64,000 nt of DNA from Microvirga arabica (GTDB taxonomy: Bacteria > Pseudomonadota > Alphaproteobacteria > Rhizobiales > Beijerinckiaceae): assembly GCF_016811235.1 (NCBI RefSeq), contig NZ_JAFBID010000018.1:1-64000 (forward strand). The letters run 5' to 3'. Positions 9,292-31,841 of the stretch are shown piece after piece; within the stretch, counting starts at the first letter, position 1; every line of letters starts with the position of its first letter. The position numbers and the translations under genes were made by a program. The notes under the pieces were generated by a model. It had not been told where the DNA came from. It did no database searches and saw only the letters and a program-made list of their open reading frames with translations.

Positions 9292-9339
9292 GACTGATGC
9301 GCTCCCGCGCGTCACCAACCATGCCGGATGAGGATCGTT

Positions 9340-9720
9340 ATGCGTTTCATTCCAACCCGTACCCACGGCGTTATAGACTACCTGACCGGGCTTCTCCTGA
9401 TCGTGGCCCCGTTCGTGCTCGGCTTCGCCGATGGCGGTGCGGCCCAGTGGGTGCCCATCATCCTTGGCGCGGCCATCCTGCTCATGAGCATCATGACGGA
9501 TTACGAACTGTCGCTCGCCAAGGTGATCCCGATGCCGTTGCATCTCGGCGTCGATGCGGCCGGCGGCCTGCTGCTCGCGGCCTCGCCCTGGCTCTTCGGC
9601 TTTGCCGACCAGGTGTTCTGGCCGCACCTGATCATCGGCCTGATGGAGATCGGGGTCTCCCTGATGACCCACACGACCCCCCACACGTCGGATGCTGGCG
9701 TGGGAGGGACTTACAGCTGA
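9340..9720 (+). CDS. SPW repeat membrane protein (copy 1)
   Basis: 126 residues from the ATG at 9340, chosen because GAGG at 9330-9333 lies six bases before it and because it aligns with the start of the paralogue at 29174. Four transmembrane segments form two repeats, each with the SPW-type motif: the second is exact (ASPWLFGFAD), the first reads VAPFVLGFAD. A conserved N-terminus (MRFIPTRTHGVIDYL) precedes them. The family is inner-membrane and of unknown function. A degenerate EcfG-type promoter lies upstream, and the paralogue sits in a putative EcfG operon, which suggests a stress role. Confidence 0.85.
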   Translation: MRFIPTRTHGVIDYLTGLLLIVAPFVLGFADGGAAQWVPIILGAAILLMSIMTDYELSLAKVIPMPLHLGVDAAGGLLLAASPWLFGFADQVFWPHLIIGLMEIGVSLMTHTTPHTSDAGVGGTYS

Positions 9721-9756
9721 TCCCGATGATCCAGTCAGCCAAGCCGGCGCTGCACT

Positions 9757-10179
9757 TCATTCGAAAGCAGGCTTGCCGCTGCGGCCCTTCTTGATCTCGG
9801 CGCGCCGCCCTTTCGACTCCAGCCTGCGCTTCTTGGAAGCCAGCGTCGGCCGCGTCGGCCGGCGGGGCTTCGGCCGCTCCGTGGCCTGCCGCACCAGCTC
9901 CACGAGGCGCTCCACCGCATCCTCCCGGTTGCGCTCCTGCGAGCGGAATCGCTGCGCCGTGATGATGAGCACGCCGTCATTGGTCATGCGGCTGCCCGCG
10001 AGCCGCTCCAGCTTTTCCTTCACGTAGTCCGGCAGCGAGGGCGAGTTGCGCACGTCGAAGCGCAGCTGGACGGCGGTTTCCACCTTGTTGACGTTCTGCC
10101 CGCCCGGGCCGGAGGCGCGGATGAAGCTTTCCTGGAGTTCCGCTTCATCGAGCGCGATGGAGTTCGTCACCTGGATCAT
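9757..10179 (-). CDS. arfB: Alternative ribosome-rescue factor / peptidyl-tRNA hydrolase ArfB
   Basis: 140 residues, the usual size. The catalytic GGQ motif is at residues 26-28 within ASGPGGQNVNK, homologous to class I release-factor domain 3. The C-terminal 35 residues are strongly basic (ASKKRRLESKGRRAEIKKGR), the tail that enters the empty mRNA channel. ArfB releases peptides from ribosomes stalled without a stop codon, as a backup to trans-translation. It is convergent with the SPW gene and stands alone. Confidence 0.94.
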   Translation of the reverse strand: MIQVTNSIALDEAELQESFIRASGPGGQNVNKVETAVQLRFDVRNSPSLPDYVKEKLERLAGSRMTNDGVLIITAQRFRSQERNREDAVERLVELVRQATERPKPRRPTRPTLASKKRRLESKGRRAEIKKGRSGKPAFE

Positions 10180-19376: not shown

Positions 19377-19402
19377 AACGTGAACAAGATTTAAACAGTT
19401 CC
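19377..19402 (-). promoter_or_regulatory. EcfG-type promoter, exact GGAAC-N17-CGTT
   Basis: On the minus strand GGAAC (19402-19398) and CGTT (19380-19377) are separated by exactly 17 bases. This is the published consensus for the alphaproteobacterial general-stress sigma factor EcfG. The predicted start is about 28 bases before the GTG of the small membrane protein gene at 19340. The match is full on both halves. Confidence 0.65.
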
Positions 19403-26928: not shown

Positions 26929-27564
26929 TCATTGAGCATAGACCTGCGAGCGCGGAAAAATGGTGTTTCCGGCTACCACTTGGGCAATCACGCCGGCGAT
27001 CTTGTCGCCGCCCTTCGCCGAGGGTTCGATGGGATTGGCGTAGTCGTCCGGCTCGTCGCAGATGAGGCGCAGGTCGATAAGGGGGAGCCGTCGGGCAAAA
27101 GCCTCGCGTGTGATGACGTCGTTGAAGATGGACAAGGCCGTCACCACGAGACGCTGCTCCTGGGGATCGGGAAAGCGGGCATCGTAGATCGTGCAGACGG
27201 CAGTCGGCAGGCGCTGGTCGAGAATGCGGTCCAGCATGGCGCGGTAGTTGCGGGCGAATTCATCCTGCACGGCCGCGAATTTCCCGATCACCTCGGCAAC
27301 GGACCTTGCCCCCTCGCGCAGGATCCCGCTGTGCCGCAGGGCGTCGTTACCGCCGACGCTCACGACGAGATGGGTCGCGTCCGAAGGCAGGCGGGACAGC
27401 TGGCTCAGAACCCCGGTCGTGACGGCGCCGTCGACCGCGCAGAGCGTTGCCCTCCAGCCCCCCGGCAGCTTCGCCTGGACCTGCCTGTTCACGTCCGGCT
27501 CGCCGCGCCGCACATAGGCGCCGTTGTCGAAGATGCTGTCGCCGAGCAGAACCACGTGGGTCAT
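26929..27564 (-). CDS. SGNH/GDSL hydrolase family protein
   Basis: 211 residues from the ATG at 27564. The catalytic serine block is VLLGDSIFDNGAY at the N-terminus, the glycine/asparagine block is VVSVGGNDAL, and the C-terminal Asp/His block is weak (DYANPIEPSAKGG), so the catalytic His is not obvious. There is no signal peptide; it is predicted cytoplasmic. The family are esterases/lipases with broad substrates. Its ATG overlaps the stop of the upstream receiver-domain gene (ATGA, 27561-27564), which indicates a two-gene operon. Confidence 0.8.
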   Translation of the reverse strand: MTHVVLLGDSIFDNGAYVRRGEPDVNRQVQAKLPGGWRATLCAVDGAVTTGVLSQLSRLPSDATHLVVSVGGNDALRHSGILREGARSVAEVIGKFAAVQDEFARNYRAMLDRILDQRLPTAVCTIYDARFPDPQEQRLVVTALSIFNDVITREAFARRLPLIDLRLICDEPDDYANPIEPSAKGGDKIAGVIAQVVAGNTIFPRSQVYAQ

Positions 27565-27941
27565 GAGCCTCTCCCGAGCAGCCGGTTCAAGGTTGGAACG
27601 AGATGAGTGGTCAGATAGGGCTTGGCCACGAATTCGGCGCCCGTCGGCACAGGACCCGAGGTGGCATCGGAATGCCCGGACATCATCACCACCGCGAGGT
27701 CGGGCCAACGCCTGCGCGCCAGACCGGCGAGCTCGTGCCCGTCGACTCTGCCGGGAAGATGCGCATCAGTCACGAGGCCATGGATCGCGGATGAGCTCTC
27801 AAGATGCTTCAAGGCCTCGTCCGAATCCGCGGCCTCCACCACCTCGTAGGACGCCTCCCGCAGATGGCGGGCGGTCGCCTGCCGGATGGTCGGCTCCTCG
27901 TCCACCAGAACGATCACCGGAGAAGGGTTTTGTGAAGGCAC
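27561..27941 (-). CDS. Single-domain response regulator (receiver)
   Basis: 126 residues from a GTG at 27941; a TTG at 27983 would give 140 but sits at the predicted transcription start of the promoter at 27982-28007. It is one receiver domain: acidic pair VDEEP near residue 14, phosphoryl aspartate Asp59 in LVTDAHLPG, Thr/Ser near VVMMSGHSD and lysine in AKPY. No output domain. No histidine kinase is adjacent. It is translationally coupled to the SGNH hydrolase gene, an unusual pairing that may place the hydrolase under phosphorelay or stress control. Confidence 0.78.
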   Translation of the reverse strand: MPSQNPSPVIVLVDEEPTIRQATARHLREASYEVVEAADSDEALKHLESSSAIHGLVTDAHLPGRVDGHELAGLARRRWPDLAVVMMSGHSDATSGPVPTGAEFVAKPYLTTHLVPTLNRLLGRGS

Positions 27942-27981
27942 CTGTCCGTCCCCGAATCCCAAGAAGACTGCGTGTCGCGAC

Positions 27982-28007
27982 AACTGAGGCGGAGTTGCCC
28001 TTGTTCC
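27982..28007 (-). promoter_or_regulatory. EcfG-like promoter near-match (GGAAC-N17-AGTT)
   Basis: On the minus strand GGAAC (28007-28003), 17 bases, then AGTT (27985-27982). One -10 base differs from the consensus. It points into the response regulator-hydrolase pair and sits back to back with an exact EcfG match on the other strand. Confidence 0.42.
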
Positions 28008-28030
28008 GGAGCAGCCTCCGCATGCGATCC

Positions 28031-28056
28031 GGAACGGGGTGTCACAGGCGGACGTT
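28031..28056 (+). promoter_or_regulatory. EcfG-type promoter, exact GGAAC-N17-CGTT
   Basis: GGAAC at 28031-28035, 17 bases, CGTT at 28053-28056. RNA would begin near 28064, about 17 bases before the ribosome site and 29 before the ATG of the small secreted/membrane protein gene at 28093. Full consensus match, correct distance and orientation. Confidence 0.7.
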
Positions 28057-28092
28057 GATCCTAGGCCCGATCTCGGGCCAAGGAGAGATCAG

Positions 28093-28353
28093 ATGATCGA
28101 GACGCTCAAGGTATCCCTGTTGACGATGATGCTGACGGTCTGGAGCGCCATCGCCATGGCCCAGACAGCGCCGGGCGGCACGCCCGGAACACCGGGCGGC
28201 GGAACGACCTCGCCGTCGGGAACGACCACGGGCGCCAATCCCGGCGGTGCCGCAGGCGAAGGCATGGACTGGGTCTGGATCATCGTGGCGGTCGTCGTAA
28301 TCGCGGCCCTGTTGTTCTACTTCCTCGGCCGCGGCCGCAGCACGCGCGTCTGA
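28093..28353 (+). CDS. Small exported Gly/Pro/Thr-rich membrane protein
   Basis: 86 residues. AGGAGAG lies six bases before the ATG. A cleavable signal peptide (ends near AMAQ) is followed by a ~35-residue low-complexity linker of Gly, Pro, Thr and Ser (PGGTPGTPGGG, SPSGTTTGANPGG). One transmembrane segment (WVWIIVAVVVIAALLFYFL) and a basic end (GRGRSTRV) follow. This gives an extracytoplasmic flexible linker anchored by its C-terminal helix. The family is not recognised. An exact EcfG-type promoter directly upstream argues for induction by general stress. Confidence 0.72.
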   Translation: MIETLKVSLLTMMLTVWSAIAMAQTAPGGTPGTPGGGTTSPSGTTTGANPGGAAGEGMDWVWIIVAVVVIAALLFYFLGRGRSTRV

Positions 28354-28373
28354 CGACGCACCCTCAGCATCGT

Positions 28374-28640
28374 TCAGGCTGGCGGCGGCTCGCTGCCGGC
28401 CTGGAAGAATGGCCGGAAGTTCTCCAGCCAGGATGCAAGCCACAATTCGAGGGCTGTCCTGGCGGCTTGTTCCGTGGGTCCATAGCCCCATACGTCCTCC
28501 TGCAGGGGCGTCGACCAGATCCAGAACCGGTTGCTGCCGTCATAGGCCACGCTGCCCACCTCGACGGACCCCACGAAGCCGACATGGCGGTTGAGGGGCA
28601 CGCCGGCCACCCGATCCTGACGCCATTCGATCCTGCTCAT
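28374..28640 (-). CDS. Small conserved hypothetical protein
   Basis: 88 residues, soluble, rich in Trp (IEWRQDR, RFWIWSTPLQEDVWGYG, LELWLASWLENF). No signal peptide or transmembrane segment. GGAGG lies upstream of the ATG (GGCAGGAGGACGCGGCGGCGC before the start). The middle GPTEQAARTALELWLASWL is helical. I do not recognise a named family. It is convergent with the small secreted gene, 20 bases apart. It has no EcfG-type promoter that I can see. Confidence 0.62.
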   Translation of the reverse strand: MSRIEWRQDRVAGVPLNRHVGFVGSVEVGSVAYDGSNRFWIWSTPLQEDVWGYGPTEQAARTALELWLASWLENFRPFFQAGSEPPPA

Positions 28641-28712
28641 GCGCCGCCGCGTCCTCCTGCCGATGACCGCGAACTAGCGCGGATGGGGGCCCGCACAAGG
28701 CCGGCTTGTCGC

Positions 28713-28737
28713 GGAACAGGCACGCGCCCCCGACGTT
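28713..28737 (+). promoter_or_regulatory. EcfG-type promoter, exact GGAAC-N16-CGTT
   Basis: GGAAC at 28713-28717, 16 bases, CGTT at 28734-28737. RNA would start near 28745, just before the GAGGGAGAG ribosome site of the 36-residue gene at 28766. The short downstream gaps suggest it also drives the thioredoxin-fold gene and SPW copy 2. Confidence 0.7.
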
Positions 28738-28765
28738 GGCGAACAGACCCTGAGGGAGAGATCCG

Positions 28766-28876
28766 ATGGAAGGCGGCGCCATCTGGCTGATGACGATCGG
28801 CACAATCATCGTGCTGTCCGGCCTCATTGTCGGGATCGCCACGCTGCTCCGCCGCCGGCGCCGCTCCCTCAAGTGA
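28766..28876 (+). CDS. 36-residue single-span membrane protein
   Basis: Very small gene: ATG at 28766, a strong ribosome site GAGGGAGAG (28752-28760), TGA at 28876. The protein starts MEGGAIWLMTIGTIIV and is nearly all one transmembrane helix ending in a block of five arginines and a lysine, so the C-terminus should be cytoplasmic. It is too short for family recognition. The ribosome site, the exact EcfG promoter 29 bases upstream, and the 22-base gap to the next gene all support it as the first gene of a small operon. Confidence 0.6.
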   Translation: MEGGAIWLMTIGTIIVLSGLIVGIATLLRRRRRSLK

Positions 28877-28898
28877 TAGGCCTCGAAAGGACGCGATC

Positions 28899-29162
28899 TT
28901 GAAGCTCGAACTCATCCACAAATGGGCCTGCCCCTATTCGGCCCGCGTCCGCGACTTCATTGAGGAGCGCGGCCTGCAGGACCGGATCGCGTACCTGGAG
29001 GTCAACGAGACGGAGGGCGCGAAGGACAGGCTCACGCAGCTGACCGGAAAGACCCAGGTGCCCTGCCTTGTCGCCGACGGAGAGCCGATCCTGGAGAGCC
29101 GTGACATCATCCAGTGGCTCGAGCACAACCTCGGTGGTGCGCAAGGCGCGGCACAGGCCTAA
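28899..29162 (+). CDS. Glutaredoxin-like / GST N-terminal domain protein
   Basis: 87 residues from a TTG at 28899, with AAAGGA 7 bases upstream; the longer frame runs back into the previous gene. It is a single thioredoxin fold: beta-strand KLELIHKWACPYSARVRDF with the CPYS active-site cysteine, the cis-proline VPCLV, and the glutathione-binding segment LESRDIIQWLE. This is the glutathione S-transferase N-terminal domain without the helical domain, a glutaredoxin-like redox protein. It lies in the proposed stress operon between the 36-residue membrane protein and SPW copy 2. Confidence 0.82.
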   Translation: MKLELIHKWACPYSARVRDFIEERGLQDRIAYLEVNETEGAKDRLTQLTGKTQVPCLVADGEPILESRDIIQWLEHNLGGAQGAAQA

Positions 29163-29173
29163 AGAACACCACC

Positions 29174-29548
29174 ATGCGCTTCCTTCCCACCCGCGCCCAC
29201 GGCGTGATCGACTACCTCTGGGGCATCGCCCTCATGGCAAGCCCATGGCTCTTCGGCTTTGCGGATGTGGCGGCCGCCACATGGGTGGCCATCGTGTTCG
29301 GCGTAGGAGCGATCCTGTATTCCGTCGTGACAGCCTATGAGCTCGGCCTCCTGAAAATCCTGCCGATGCCCATGCATCTGATCCTCGACGGGATCGGCGG
29401 GATCGTGCTGGCGGCCTCGCCATTCCTGTTCGGCTTCGCAGATCGGGTGCTCTGGCCGCATGTTCTCTTCGGCCTGTTCTCCGTCATGGCGTGCTTCGTC
29501 ACACGTCTCGAACCGATGCTGACGACAGGCCACCGGGAACCGGCCTGA
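29174..29548 (+). CDS. SPW repeat membrane protein (copy 2)
   Basis: 124 residues, 11 bases after the redox gene. Four transmembrane helices carry the motifs ASPWLFGFAD and ASPFLFGFAD, and the conserved N-terminus MRFLPTRAHGVIDYL is shared with the copy at 9340. It is the third gene of the putative EcfG operon starting at 28766. The function of the family is unknown. Two paralogues near EcfG-like promoters make a stress-related envelope role plausible. Confidence 0.87.
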   Translation: MRFLPTRAHGVIDYLWGIALMASPWLFGFADVAAATWVAIVFGVGAILYSVVTAYELGLLKILPMPMHLILDGIGGIVLAASPFLFGFADRVLWPHVLFGLFSVMACFVTRLEPMLTTGHREPA

Positions 29549-29618
29549 ATACCCAGAAAGCTTCGTTGACGAGCCTGCCGGCGAGGCGCAGCATCTTGGC
29601 GCCACAAGGGAGGCAGCC

Positions 29619-29801
29619 ATGTTCGAGAGCATCGTCCAGGCAAGTGAGGCCCATCGCGAAAGTGCCCATCGGATGGTGGGATCCCTCAGGATGGCCCTGA
29701 AGGGCTGCCCGGAATGCGGCACGTCACAGATGATCGCGTCGCCCAGCCTCGGCGTCTGCGACGATTGCGGATCGAGCCTCGTGGTTCTTCCGCACGAATA
29801 G
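29619..29801 (+). CDS. Small zinc-ribbon-like protein
   Basis: 60 residues with an excellent ribosome site (AAGGGAGG, 29606-29613). The C-terminal half has two CxxC pairs, CPECGTSQM and CDDCGSSLV, spaced 14 residues apart, a probable single zinc ribbon. The N-terminal half (MFESIVQASEAHRESAHRMV) is an amphipathic helix. No name can be given. It follows SPW copy 2 by 70 bases and could be the last gene of that operon. GGAAC and CGTT words upstream are 23 bases apart, which is too far for an EcfG promoter. Confidence 0.65.
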   Translation: MFESIVQASEAHRESAHRMVGSLRMALKGCPECGTSQMIASPSLGVCDDCGSSLVVLPHE

Positions 29802-29875
29802 TCTCGCCCCGCCAACCGCTATTCCCGTAGGCGATCCTGCGAACCACGCTCTATGCTCCGCTTTCGGAGAATCGC

Positions 29876-30997
29876 ATGGCATTGTCTGGGTGGATCGAGC
29901 GGGCAGGCGAACGCCTCGGCACACGGGGCGCGGAGCTGAGGCTGGCATTGCGTGTCACCATCGCGGGTGTGCTGGCTTATGCAGTCACCCGCTTCTTCGA
30001 CATGCCGCAGGGCTATTGGGCGGTGATCACGGCTGTCGTTGTTATGCAAGCGAGCGTCGGCGGCTCCCTCAAGGCTGCCGTGGAGCGCTTTAGCGGCACG
30101 CTCGCGGGGGCCGTTTATGGCGGCGTGATTGCTGCCCTCATTCCGCATGGCTCGGCTGTCACCCTCGGGCTCGCCATTACCGCGGCTCTGCTCCCGCTGG
30201 CGCTGCTTGCGGCCGTCAGACCGGCTTTCCGCGTGGCACCGATCACGTCGCTGATCATGCTGCTGCCGCCCACGGGGCAGACCATCGGCCCTCTCGCCTC
30301 GGCCATGGACCGGGTGCTGGAGATCACGCTCGGCAACGTGGTGGGCGTGCTCGTTGCCGTGTTCGTGCTGCCCGCGCGGGCCCATAATCTGATGACGGAC
30401 GCGGCCGCCAAAGTCGTGTCGCTCAACGCGGACCTCGTCACCGTGTTCATCGACGAGCTGACTGACGCCCAGACCGGCCGCTCGGCCCTACAAAAAATAC
30501 ACCCTCAGATCCGCTCGGCCCTGAAGAAGGCGGAAGCCGCCGCCGAGGAAGCGGCGCGGGAGCGCCGGACCCACCTCACCGAGGCGCCCGATCCCGAGCC
30601 GCTCATTCGCACGCTCTACCGGGTGCGTCATGACCTCGTGATGATCGGCCGCGCGGCGTCCGCTCCCCTGCCCGCTCCGGTTCTGGACAGGCTCAGGCCC
30701 TCGCTCACGACGCTGCATCAGACTACGCGTGCGTTGCTCCTGAACTTGGCTGACGCGCTGCGACATCACACGAAGCCGCCGGACGCCGAAGCCTTCCGCG
30801 CAGCCCTGGAGGCTTTCACCAGAGATGCGGACGCGCTGCGCGCCGATGCACTCGTTCGCGAGCTACCGGGTCATGCATTCGGACAGGTCTTCGCCCTGGG
30901 TTTCGCCTTCGAGCAGTTCCAGAAAAACCTCGGCGATCTGCTCGCCCGCACCGATGAACTCGCTGCGGAGCGCACCAAAACGCCTCCGGGGAGTTGA
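29876..30997 (+). CDS. FUSC family (aromatic acid exporter-like) membrane protein
   Basis: 373 residues. Five or six transmembrane helices lie in the first 170 residues, including the family segment PQGYWAVITAVVVMQASVGGSL. A long, soluble, helical C-terminal half follows (ALKKAEAAAEEAARERRTH and beyond). This matches the half-size FUSC proteins related to AaeB/YccS, inner-membrane exporters of aromatic acids or amphiphiles. The typical MFP partner gene is absent. The following hydrolase gene begins one base after its stop, so the two are co-transcribed. Confidence 0.82.
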   Translation: MALSGWIERAGERLGTRGAELRLALRVTIAGVLAYAVTRFFDMPQGYWAVITAVVVMQASVGGSLKAAVERFSGTLAGAVYGGVIAALIPHGSAVTLGLAITAALLPLALLAAVRPAFRVAPITSLIMLLPPTGQTIGPLASAMDRVLEITLGNVVGVLVAVFVLPARAHNLMTDAAAKVVSLNADLVTVFIDELTDAQTGRSALQKIHPQIRSALKKAEAAAEEAARERRTHLTEAPDPEPLIRTLYRVRHDLVMIGRAASAPLPAPVLDRLRPSLTTLHQTTRALLLNLADALRHHTKPPDAEAFRAALEAFTRDADALRADALVRELPGHAFGQVFALGFAFEQFQKNLGDLLARTDELAAERTKTPPGS

Positions 30998-30998
30998 C

Positions 30999-31841
30999 GT
31001 GCCTGTGGCTCCAACATCCAGGTCGGCACCGATGTGGCTTCTTACCCTCGTCCTCGGCATAGCCCTGCTCTACGCTGGCTTCATTCTTGTGACGGCCTTG
31101 TTTCAGACCAGGATGCTGTTCCCGGCACAGATGGCGGCCGCCAATCGCCCTCCACTGCCATCATCCGCGGAGAGACTTGAACTGACCACGCCCGATGGCG
31201 ATCGCCTCATCGGTGTGCGGCTTGGAAAGGCATCTGGCGAGAAGCCGCTCGTGCTCGGCTTCGGCGGCAATGCCTGGAATGCGGATGCCGTTGCGCTCAC
31301 CCTGCATGGGCTCTTTCCCGATCATGAGGTGATGGCCTTCCATTATCGCGGCTATCCGCCGAGCAGCGGAGAGCCCAGCGCGAAGGCGCTGCTCGCGGAT
31401 GCGCTGACGATCTTCGATCACCTGCAACAGGAGCGCCCTCGGAAAGTGGTTGCGGTCGGCTTCAGCATCGGCAGCGGTGTCGCGGCCAATCTCGCACACC
31501 ACCGGGAACTCGCAGGCCTGATCCTCGTCACGCCGTTCGACTCGTTAAAGGCTTTGGCGCGGGAGCACTTCTCCTGGGCGCCGACGGGCCTTCTCCTGCG
31601 CCATCACATGCCGACCATCGATCTGGTGAAGGATCGGCCGACGCCTACGGCACTGATTGCAGCAGGCCGCGACACTATCGTCCCGCCGCGTCGGACTGTG
31701 CCCTTGCGGAGCGCCATTCCCAATCTTGTTCTTGATCGCACGATCATGGATGCGGGACACAACGAACTTTACCAGCATCCCGCCTTCGTGGCCGCGATGC
31801 GTGAGGCGGTCGCTGCTTTCGACGCCACCGCCCCCCGCTGA
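30999..31841 (+). CDS. Membrane-anchored alpha/beta hydrolase
   Basis: 280 residues from a GTG at 30999, preceded by GGGGAG; the open frame extends far back into the FUSC gene. An N-terminal signal anchor (LLTLVLGIALLYAGFILVTALF) is followed by an alpha/beta-hydrolase fold: oxyanion strand LVLGFGGNAWNA, nucleophile elbow GFSIGSG, acid in AAGRDTIVPP and histidine in DAGHNELY. It resembles the YfhR/BEM46 family of membrane-bound esterases with unknown substrates. It is coupled to the FUSC gene and convergent with ade. Confidence 0.82.
   Translation: MPVAPTSRSAPMWLLTLVLGIALLYAGFILVTALFQTRMLFPAQMAAANRPPLPSSAERLELTTPDGDRLIGVRLGKASGEKPLVLGFGGNAWNADAVALTLHGLFPDHEVMAFHYRGYPPSSGEPSAKALLADALTIFDHLQQERPRKVVAVGFSIGSGVAANLAHHRELAGLILVTPFDSLKALAREHFSWAPTGLLLRHHMPTIDLVKDRPTPTALIAAGRDTIVPPRRTVPLRSAIPNLVLDRTIMDAGHNELYQHPAFVAAMREAVAAFDATAPR

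Follow-up and report, generated by a model that had tools for sequence, protein, structure and literature searches.

Do three small genes that follow a sigma-EcfG-type promoter box in Microvirga arabica form a stress-induced operon, and do their products act as one unit? The locus lies in a stretch of 64,000 nucleotides, here called the window, on contig C99 of a 6.67 Mb genome (G000). The initial annotation described an EcfG operon encoding a tiny single-span protein, a CPYS redox protein and a four-span SPW protein, and proposed that they make up a membrane stress module. The features of the region are as follows.

28031–28056, plus strand: second EcfG-type box, GGAAC-N17-CGTT, before p86
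28093–28353, plus strand: p86, 86 residues, with a signal-like N terminus and a C-terminal span (by eye); a separate unit
28374–28640, minus strand: p88, divergent flanking gene; PF23811 at E 0.079, below the cut-off
28713–28737, plus strand: sigma-EcfG-type promoter GGAAC-N16-CGTT, exact match, GGAACAGGCACGCGCCCCCGACGTT
28766–28876, plus strand: p36, ATG start, 36 residues, no Pfam family
28899–29162, plus strand: gst, TTG start, 87 residues, CPYS active site, glutaredoxin/GST N-domain
29174–29548, plus strand: SPW repeat protein, 124 residues, PF03779 at E 1.2e-18, four predicted helices
29619–29801, plus strand: zn60, 60 residues, zinc-ribbon-like (CPEC...CDDC), 70 bases after SPW

The promoter box and its conservation

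The exact box at the head of the unit and the gaps of 22 bases (28877–28898) and 11 bases (29163–29173) between its three genes were both confirmed as originally described. Taken singly, such a box is weak evidence and could have arisen by chance, since 0.41 exact N16 boxes are expected in 64 kb (31 of 100 shuffled sequences contained at least one) and exact N16/17 boxes in the whole genome outnumber a reversed control pattern only 1.3-fold (162 vs 122). The third exact box in the window, GGAAC-N17-CGTT at 19402–19377 on the minus strand, may itself be a chance occurrence; an internal ATG shortly downstream of it would open a stretch of about 70 residues with a hydrophobic tail, possibly a tail-anchored protein.

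It is the conserved position before the first gene that makes the box significant despite this chance level. Among the 101 genomes compared, 48 of them from Microvirga, we detected 25 intact SPW orthologs (66–100% identical). GGAAC-N16/17-[CT]GTT was retrieved within 130 nt upstream of the first gene in all 25 ortholog units, which, being related by descent, are not 25 independent tests. The 3′ element was CGTT in 23 units and TGTT in two. As a control, the opposite strand gave one match in 25, and shuffled sequence 0.001 per 130 nt. In 24 units, 22–34 nt separate the end of the box from the start codon of the leading gene, be it p36, gst or spw; the one exception is L008, where a shortened remnant of p36 persists. 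Across the 22 rows whose spacer is N16, the GGAAC and GTT columns were 100% conserved (rounded) and the C of CGTT 90%. Within the spacer, 12 of the 16 columns agreed at 40–70% and four at 80–90%, the first three bases being in the latter range, and the flanks also agree among the ortholog rows.

A 26th, partial SPW ortholog in M. tunisiensis (L120) is likewise preceded by the box, and a 27th (G021, L029) combines CATT in place of CGTT with a frameshifted SPW gene, a frameshift that could be an assembly error. In the outgroups, GGAAC-N16/17-TGTT was found at an uncultured Methylobacteriaceae locus and an Enterovirga MAG locus, and GGAAC-N16-GGTT at a Methylobacterium oxalidis locus. The last of these fits the consensus GAAC-N16,17-C/GGTT given for M. 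extorquens in the accessible text of PMC4814048; for Sphingopyxis, the accessible text of PMC7083833 gives GGAAC-N16-CGTT.

Gene content and history of the unit

The 25 intact loci comprise eight with p36-gst-spw behind the box (L001, L002, L004, L005, L007, L009, L010 and L012), three with gst-spw (L003, L006 and L008) and 14 with spw alone. M. aerilata is among the species with the full unit. In L003 and L006, gst directly follows the box. Another combination occurs in G024, where box, p36 and gst are located between p88 and zn60 and SPW is gone; the gst frame there runs through 94 codons, and the TAG that was counted is the gene's own stop. In Microvirga lenta (G045), a lone p36 lies on another contig with an exact box of its own 30 nt upstream of its start; an spw gene that also has a box is encoded at a separate place.

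Searched against 46 further SPW places, a gst profile built from the 11 orthologs matched nothing up to E 1. These are 36 loci of other genera, each representing a different genome (58 other genomes had an SPW match), and 10 Microvirga paralogs; they correspond to 47 numbered loci, L148 and L071 being the same paralog in the window. EcfG-type boxes were detected at one of the 47 (L145, with GGTT; about 1.4 expected by chance for the loose pattern, a hand estimate), several of which have approximate starts and four of which (L134, L145, L152 and L153) are weak SPW matches by profile. The expectation that a GST_N gene would lie directly upstream of SPW genes across the order fails in the genomes covered, as the small gst was found only in the genus among 397 genomes of the family and its profile found nothing at the 36 loci of other genera.

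The history of the unit was reconstructed from a 30-row tree, rooted with the outgroups and built on four proteins encoded in the region; 10 rows have under half of the columns, and support for the node that unites the gst-bearing clades is 73/94. On the rooted tree, box-spw is basal, and the presence of gst requires two changes (one gain and one loss) and that of p36 five. The association of the box with SPW alone looks older, and it is seen in the three outgroup loci. In the simplest history under parsimony, p36 and gst would have been inserted between box and SPW a single time; afterwards the pair would have been lost once, in a clade of seven, p36 three times and SPW once. Horizontal transfer of the p36-gst pair is possible.

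The CPYS protein

The product of gst aligned with two Pfam profiles, GST_N_2 (PF13409, E 2.1e-14) and Glutaredoxin (PF00462, E 7.8e-10). Residues C11, P12, Y13, S14, V54, P55, E66 and S67 are invariant in the 11 orthologs, and the TTG start is also present in L003 and L006. Its AF2 model, of moderate confidence (pLDDT 78), matched GST and glutaredoxin chains at Z 10–11, with GSTs as the best matches and E. coli glutaredoxin 3 at Z 10.2. By sequence, it matched human thioltransferase and E. coli glutaredoxin 1. The gene is under purifying selection (pN/pS 0.26). Small gst genes were found in 12 of the 101 genomes compared and in 12 of 397 genomes of the family, all of them in Microvirga (at most 13 candidates scored per genome).

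The CPY[CS] site, the VP pair and the thioredoxin fold that characterize class I glutaredoxins are all found in this protein, and its VP and ES pairs are presumably involved in glutathione binding. A full glutathione S-transferase was also considered and rejected, as the reading frame ends at residue 87, few residues after the N-domain, and encodes no all-helical C-terminal domain. Judging by motif and fold model, the CPYS protein is most likely a cytosolic, glutathione-dependent, single-cysteine glutaredoxin.

The SPW protein and its paralogs

The SPW protein scored 67.8 bits with PF03779 (gathering score 31.5), and its AF2 model (pLDDT 92.9) contains helices at residues 6–26, 33–52, 65–86 and 94–109. 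The protein is made up of two units of two predicted transmembrane helices with an SPW motif, as is the family; the motifs of the two repeat units are ASPWLFGFAD and ASPFLFGFAD, and according to the accessible text of PMC8078820, the second motif of the family can be degenerate. The annotation of a four-span SPW protein alongside a CPYS redox protein holds. An H-x3-D pair opens each unit (H9/D13 and H68/D72); it is invariant in 28 aligned sequences, and the pairs are present in six of six remote relatives inspected. The gene is under purifying selection (pN/pS 0.21). Foldseek searches with the model retrieved no match at E ≤0.001, and sequence searches against solved structures retrieved nothing up to E 1. 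Fold matches to copper storage proteins and VKOR, at Z 6–10, were given no weight, these scores being within reach of helical bundles by chance. In open-licence papers, we found no function assigned to the SPW family.

The window contains an SPW paralog at 9340–9684 (53% identical; SPW domain at 9364–9660), with no EcfG box in the 3 kb read. The frame 9297–9794, which differs from that of the paralog, was assigned to no family. The paralog is encoded downstream of a radical-SAM gene (lysine-2,3-aminomutase match below the cut-off), and the same upstream protein end precedes seven of the 10 Microvirga SPW paralogs. SPW domains also occur in long open frames of 838 and 933 codons on contigs C202 and C194 of G000, which are possible fusion proteins.

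The small protein p36 and the neighbouring genes

p36 contains one hydrophobic span, judged by eye, followed by a basic tail (RRRRRSLK), and aligned with no Pfam family above the cut-off. Matches at E <1e-7 were retrieved in 10 of the 101 genomes, and three weaker ones at E 0.03–0.07. It is a real coding gene, because its pooled pN/pS is 0.34 (10 sequences, whose pairs are not independent) while pN exceeds pS when this DNA is read in either of its other two frames (nine sequences).

Downstream of the unit, neither an EcfG box nor a terminator-like site was found in the interval between SPW and zn60; a match to the terminator-like consensus lies inside SPW (29409–29422). This conserved gene, like the second box at 28031, was missed in the initial annotation. 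zn60 was detected in 23 of 30 tree rows and persists where SPW has disappeared; it is a possible fourth gene of the transcript. On the other side, p88 occurs in 23 of the 30 rows and marks the syntenic place. All 17 of the p86-carrying loci among L001–L025 have an exact box ahead of that gene, whose product is predicted to be a small secreted or membrane protein.

The general stress response regulators

In the established pathway, PhyR sequesters the anti-sigma factor NepR and sigma-EcfG is released. All three proteins are encoded at one locus (L121) of the window's genome, as identified with Pfam, and exact boxes between phyR and nepR face both ways, before phyR and before nepR-ecfG. The unit has two features expected of a member of the sigma-EcfG regulon, a promoter near its first gene and the three regulators in the same genome. 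Since the box is conserved and the phyR-nepR-ecfG locus is present, we infer that the unit is transcribed by EcfG.

Ten NepR matches exceeded the Pfam cut-off in G000, one with an internal stop, suggesting many anti-sigma paralogs. Near ecfG, an exact box at position 4668 of L121 precedes a 67-residue membrane-like protein (L121 4668–4923). The accessible part of PMC12919014 does not treat this regulon, and that of PMC8103513 contributes nothing further. Among the main texts of open-licence papers, none was found that describes this unit or that connects SPW to EcfG or to the general stress response.

Function of the unit

The unit is probably part of the general stress response, as an EcfG-controlled operon of co-induced, separately useful helpers that do not form an obligate complex. 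PhyR would sequester NepR, sigma-EcfG would be freed, and p36-gst-spw, possibly together with zn60, would be transcribed from the box at 28713. The old core would consist of the box and the SPW gene, whose product is a membrane protein of four helices. Placement of p36 and gst between the promoter and spw, in one Microvirga lineage, would have brought these two genes into the regulon. From the sequences compared, box and spw appear to be the stable pair, and p36 and gst later arrivals under selection. The CPYS protein, by its motif and fold, would deglutathionylate proteins following oxidative stress or desiccation. For SPW and p36, topology hints weakly at protection or tuning of the inner membrane as the most likely role.

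The three genes are not kept or lost together: they occur in four combinations and as a lone p36. An obligate three-part machine is not supported because each gene is missing from some arrangement, and the same partial combinations (p36-gst, gst-spw, spw alone and lone p36) speak against the three-part membrane stress module first proposed. The suggested redox or proton-leak control unit is unsupported, and nothing found bears on a proton leak. What stands of the proposed EcfG operon for three proteins is the EcfG control and the co-transcribed layout, both well supported by the comparison, but not the fixed joint module.

As a counterpoint, eight of the 11 gst-spw units keep all three genes in a fixed order, an arrangement compatible with a joint function too. 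Such a function could be a membrane redox module, in which p36 and SPW would form a platform that docks the CPYS protein, reducing or deglutathionylating membrane proteins. Fixed order and tight gaps in the eight full units speak for it, and according to the accessible text of PMC8078820, some SPW proteins also contain an epimerase domain or the domain of VKOR, which is a thiol-redox enzyme of membranes; the SPW model also has VKOR fold matches at Z ~6. We regard this explanation as unlikely, as that score is not above the background for a helical bundle, the SPW columns that are invariant, or nearly so, contain no cysteine, no gst-profile hit lies beside the 46 other SPW places and partial gene combinations exist. 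That p36 and gst were inserted behind a stress promoter by chance and have no stress role would agree with the repeated loss of p36, the single loss of the pair and the restriction of the small gst to the genus. Purifying selection on both genes, and the exact box that the lone p36 of M. lenta has of its own, make such a bystander operon quite unlikely. That a different promoter drives the operon, the box being no EcfG promoter at all, is highly improbable: chance alone makes exact boxes frequent in this genome, but the position is conserved in 25 of 25 units, adjoining whichever gene is first, and no E. coli sigma-70-type site was found at 27500–31200 in a scan confined to that promoter type.

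A further reading, which we consider doubtful, is that box and SPW, a stress promoter and the persistent last gene behind it, form a docking place at which small genes are inserted, tested and deleted; SPW, with its symmetric H-x3-D pairs, could be a new stress-induced membrane protein that handles metal or protons, and p36 its small regulator. If this is true, the regulon expands as genes are inserted downstream of a promoter that is already there. With the unit read as an operon of co-induced helpers, the comparison would tie the SPW family to the alphaproteobacterial general stress response, the promoter being conserved across Microvirga, and variants of it occurring at three loci from neighbouring genera. 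The natural series of spw, gst-spw, p36-gst-spw, p36-gst and p36 alone shows genes entering or leaving a stress regulon behind a fixed promoter, and p36 is a candidate 36-residue stress protein.

Comparison with known systems

The unit has the same promoter type as the PhyR-NepR-EcfG regulon of Alphaproteobacteria, and all three regulators are encoded in the same genome. Like the symmetric repeats of the SPW family model in the accessible text of PMC8078820, the SPW protein of the window consists of two units of two helices; its H-x3-D pairs, by eye, are absent from most of the canonical SPW starts compared. The product of gst resembles the N-terminal domains of GSTs, scoring better in Pfam as GST_N than as glutaredoxin, and differs from GSTs in its length of only 87 residues, without their helical C-terminal domain. 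With the CPYS class I glutaredoxins, such as yeast Grx7, it has in common the CPYS motif and the VP and ES pairs, and ScGrx7 is described in the accessible text of PMC7138851 as an enzymatically active member of the CPYS type.
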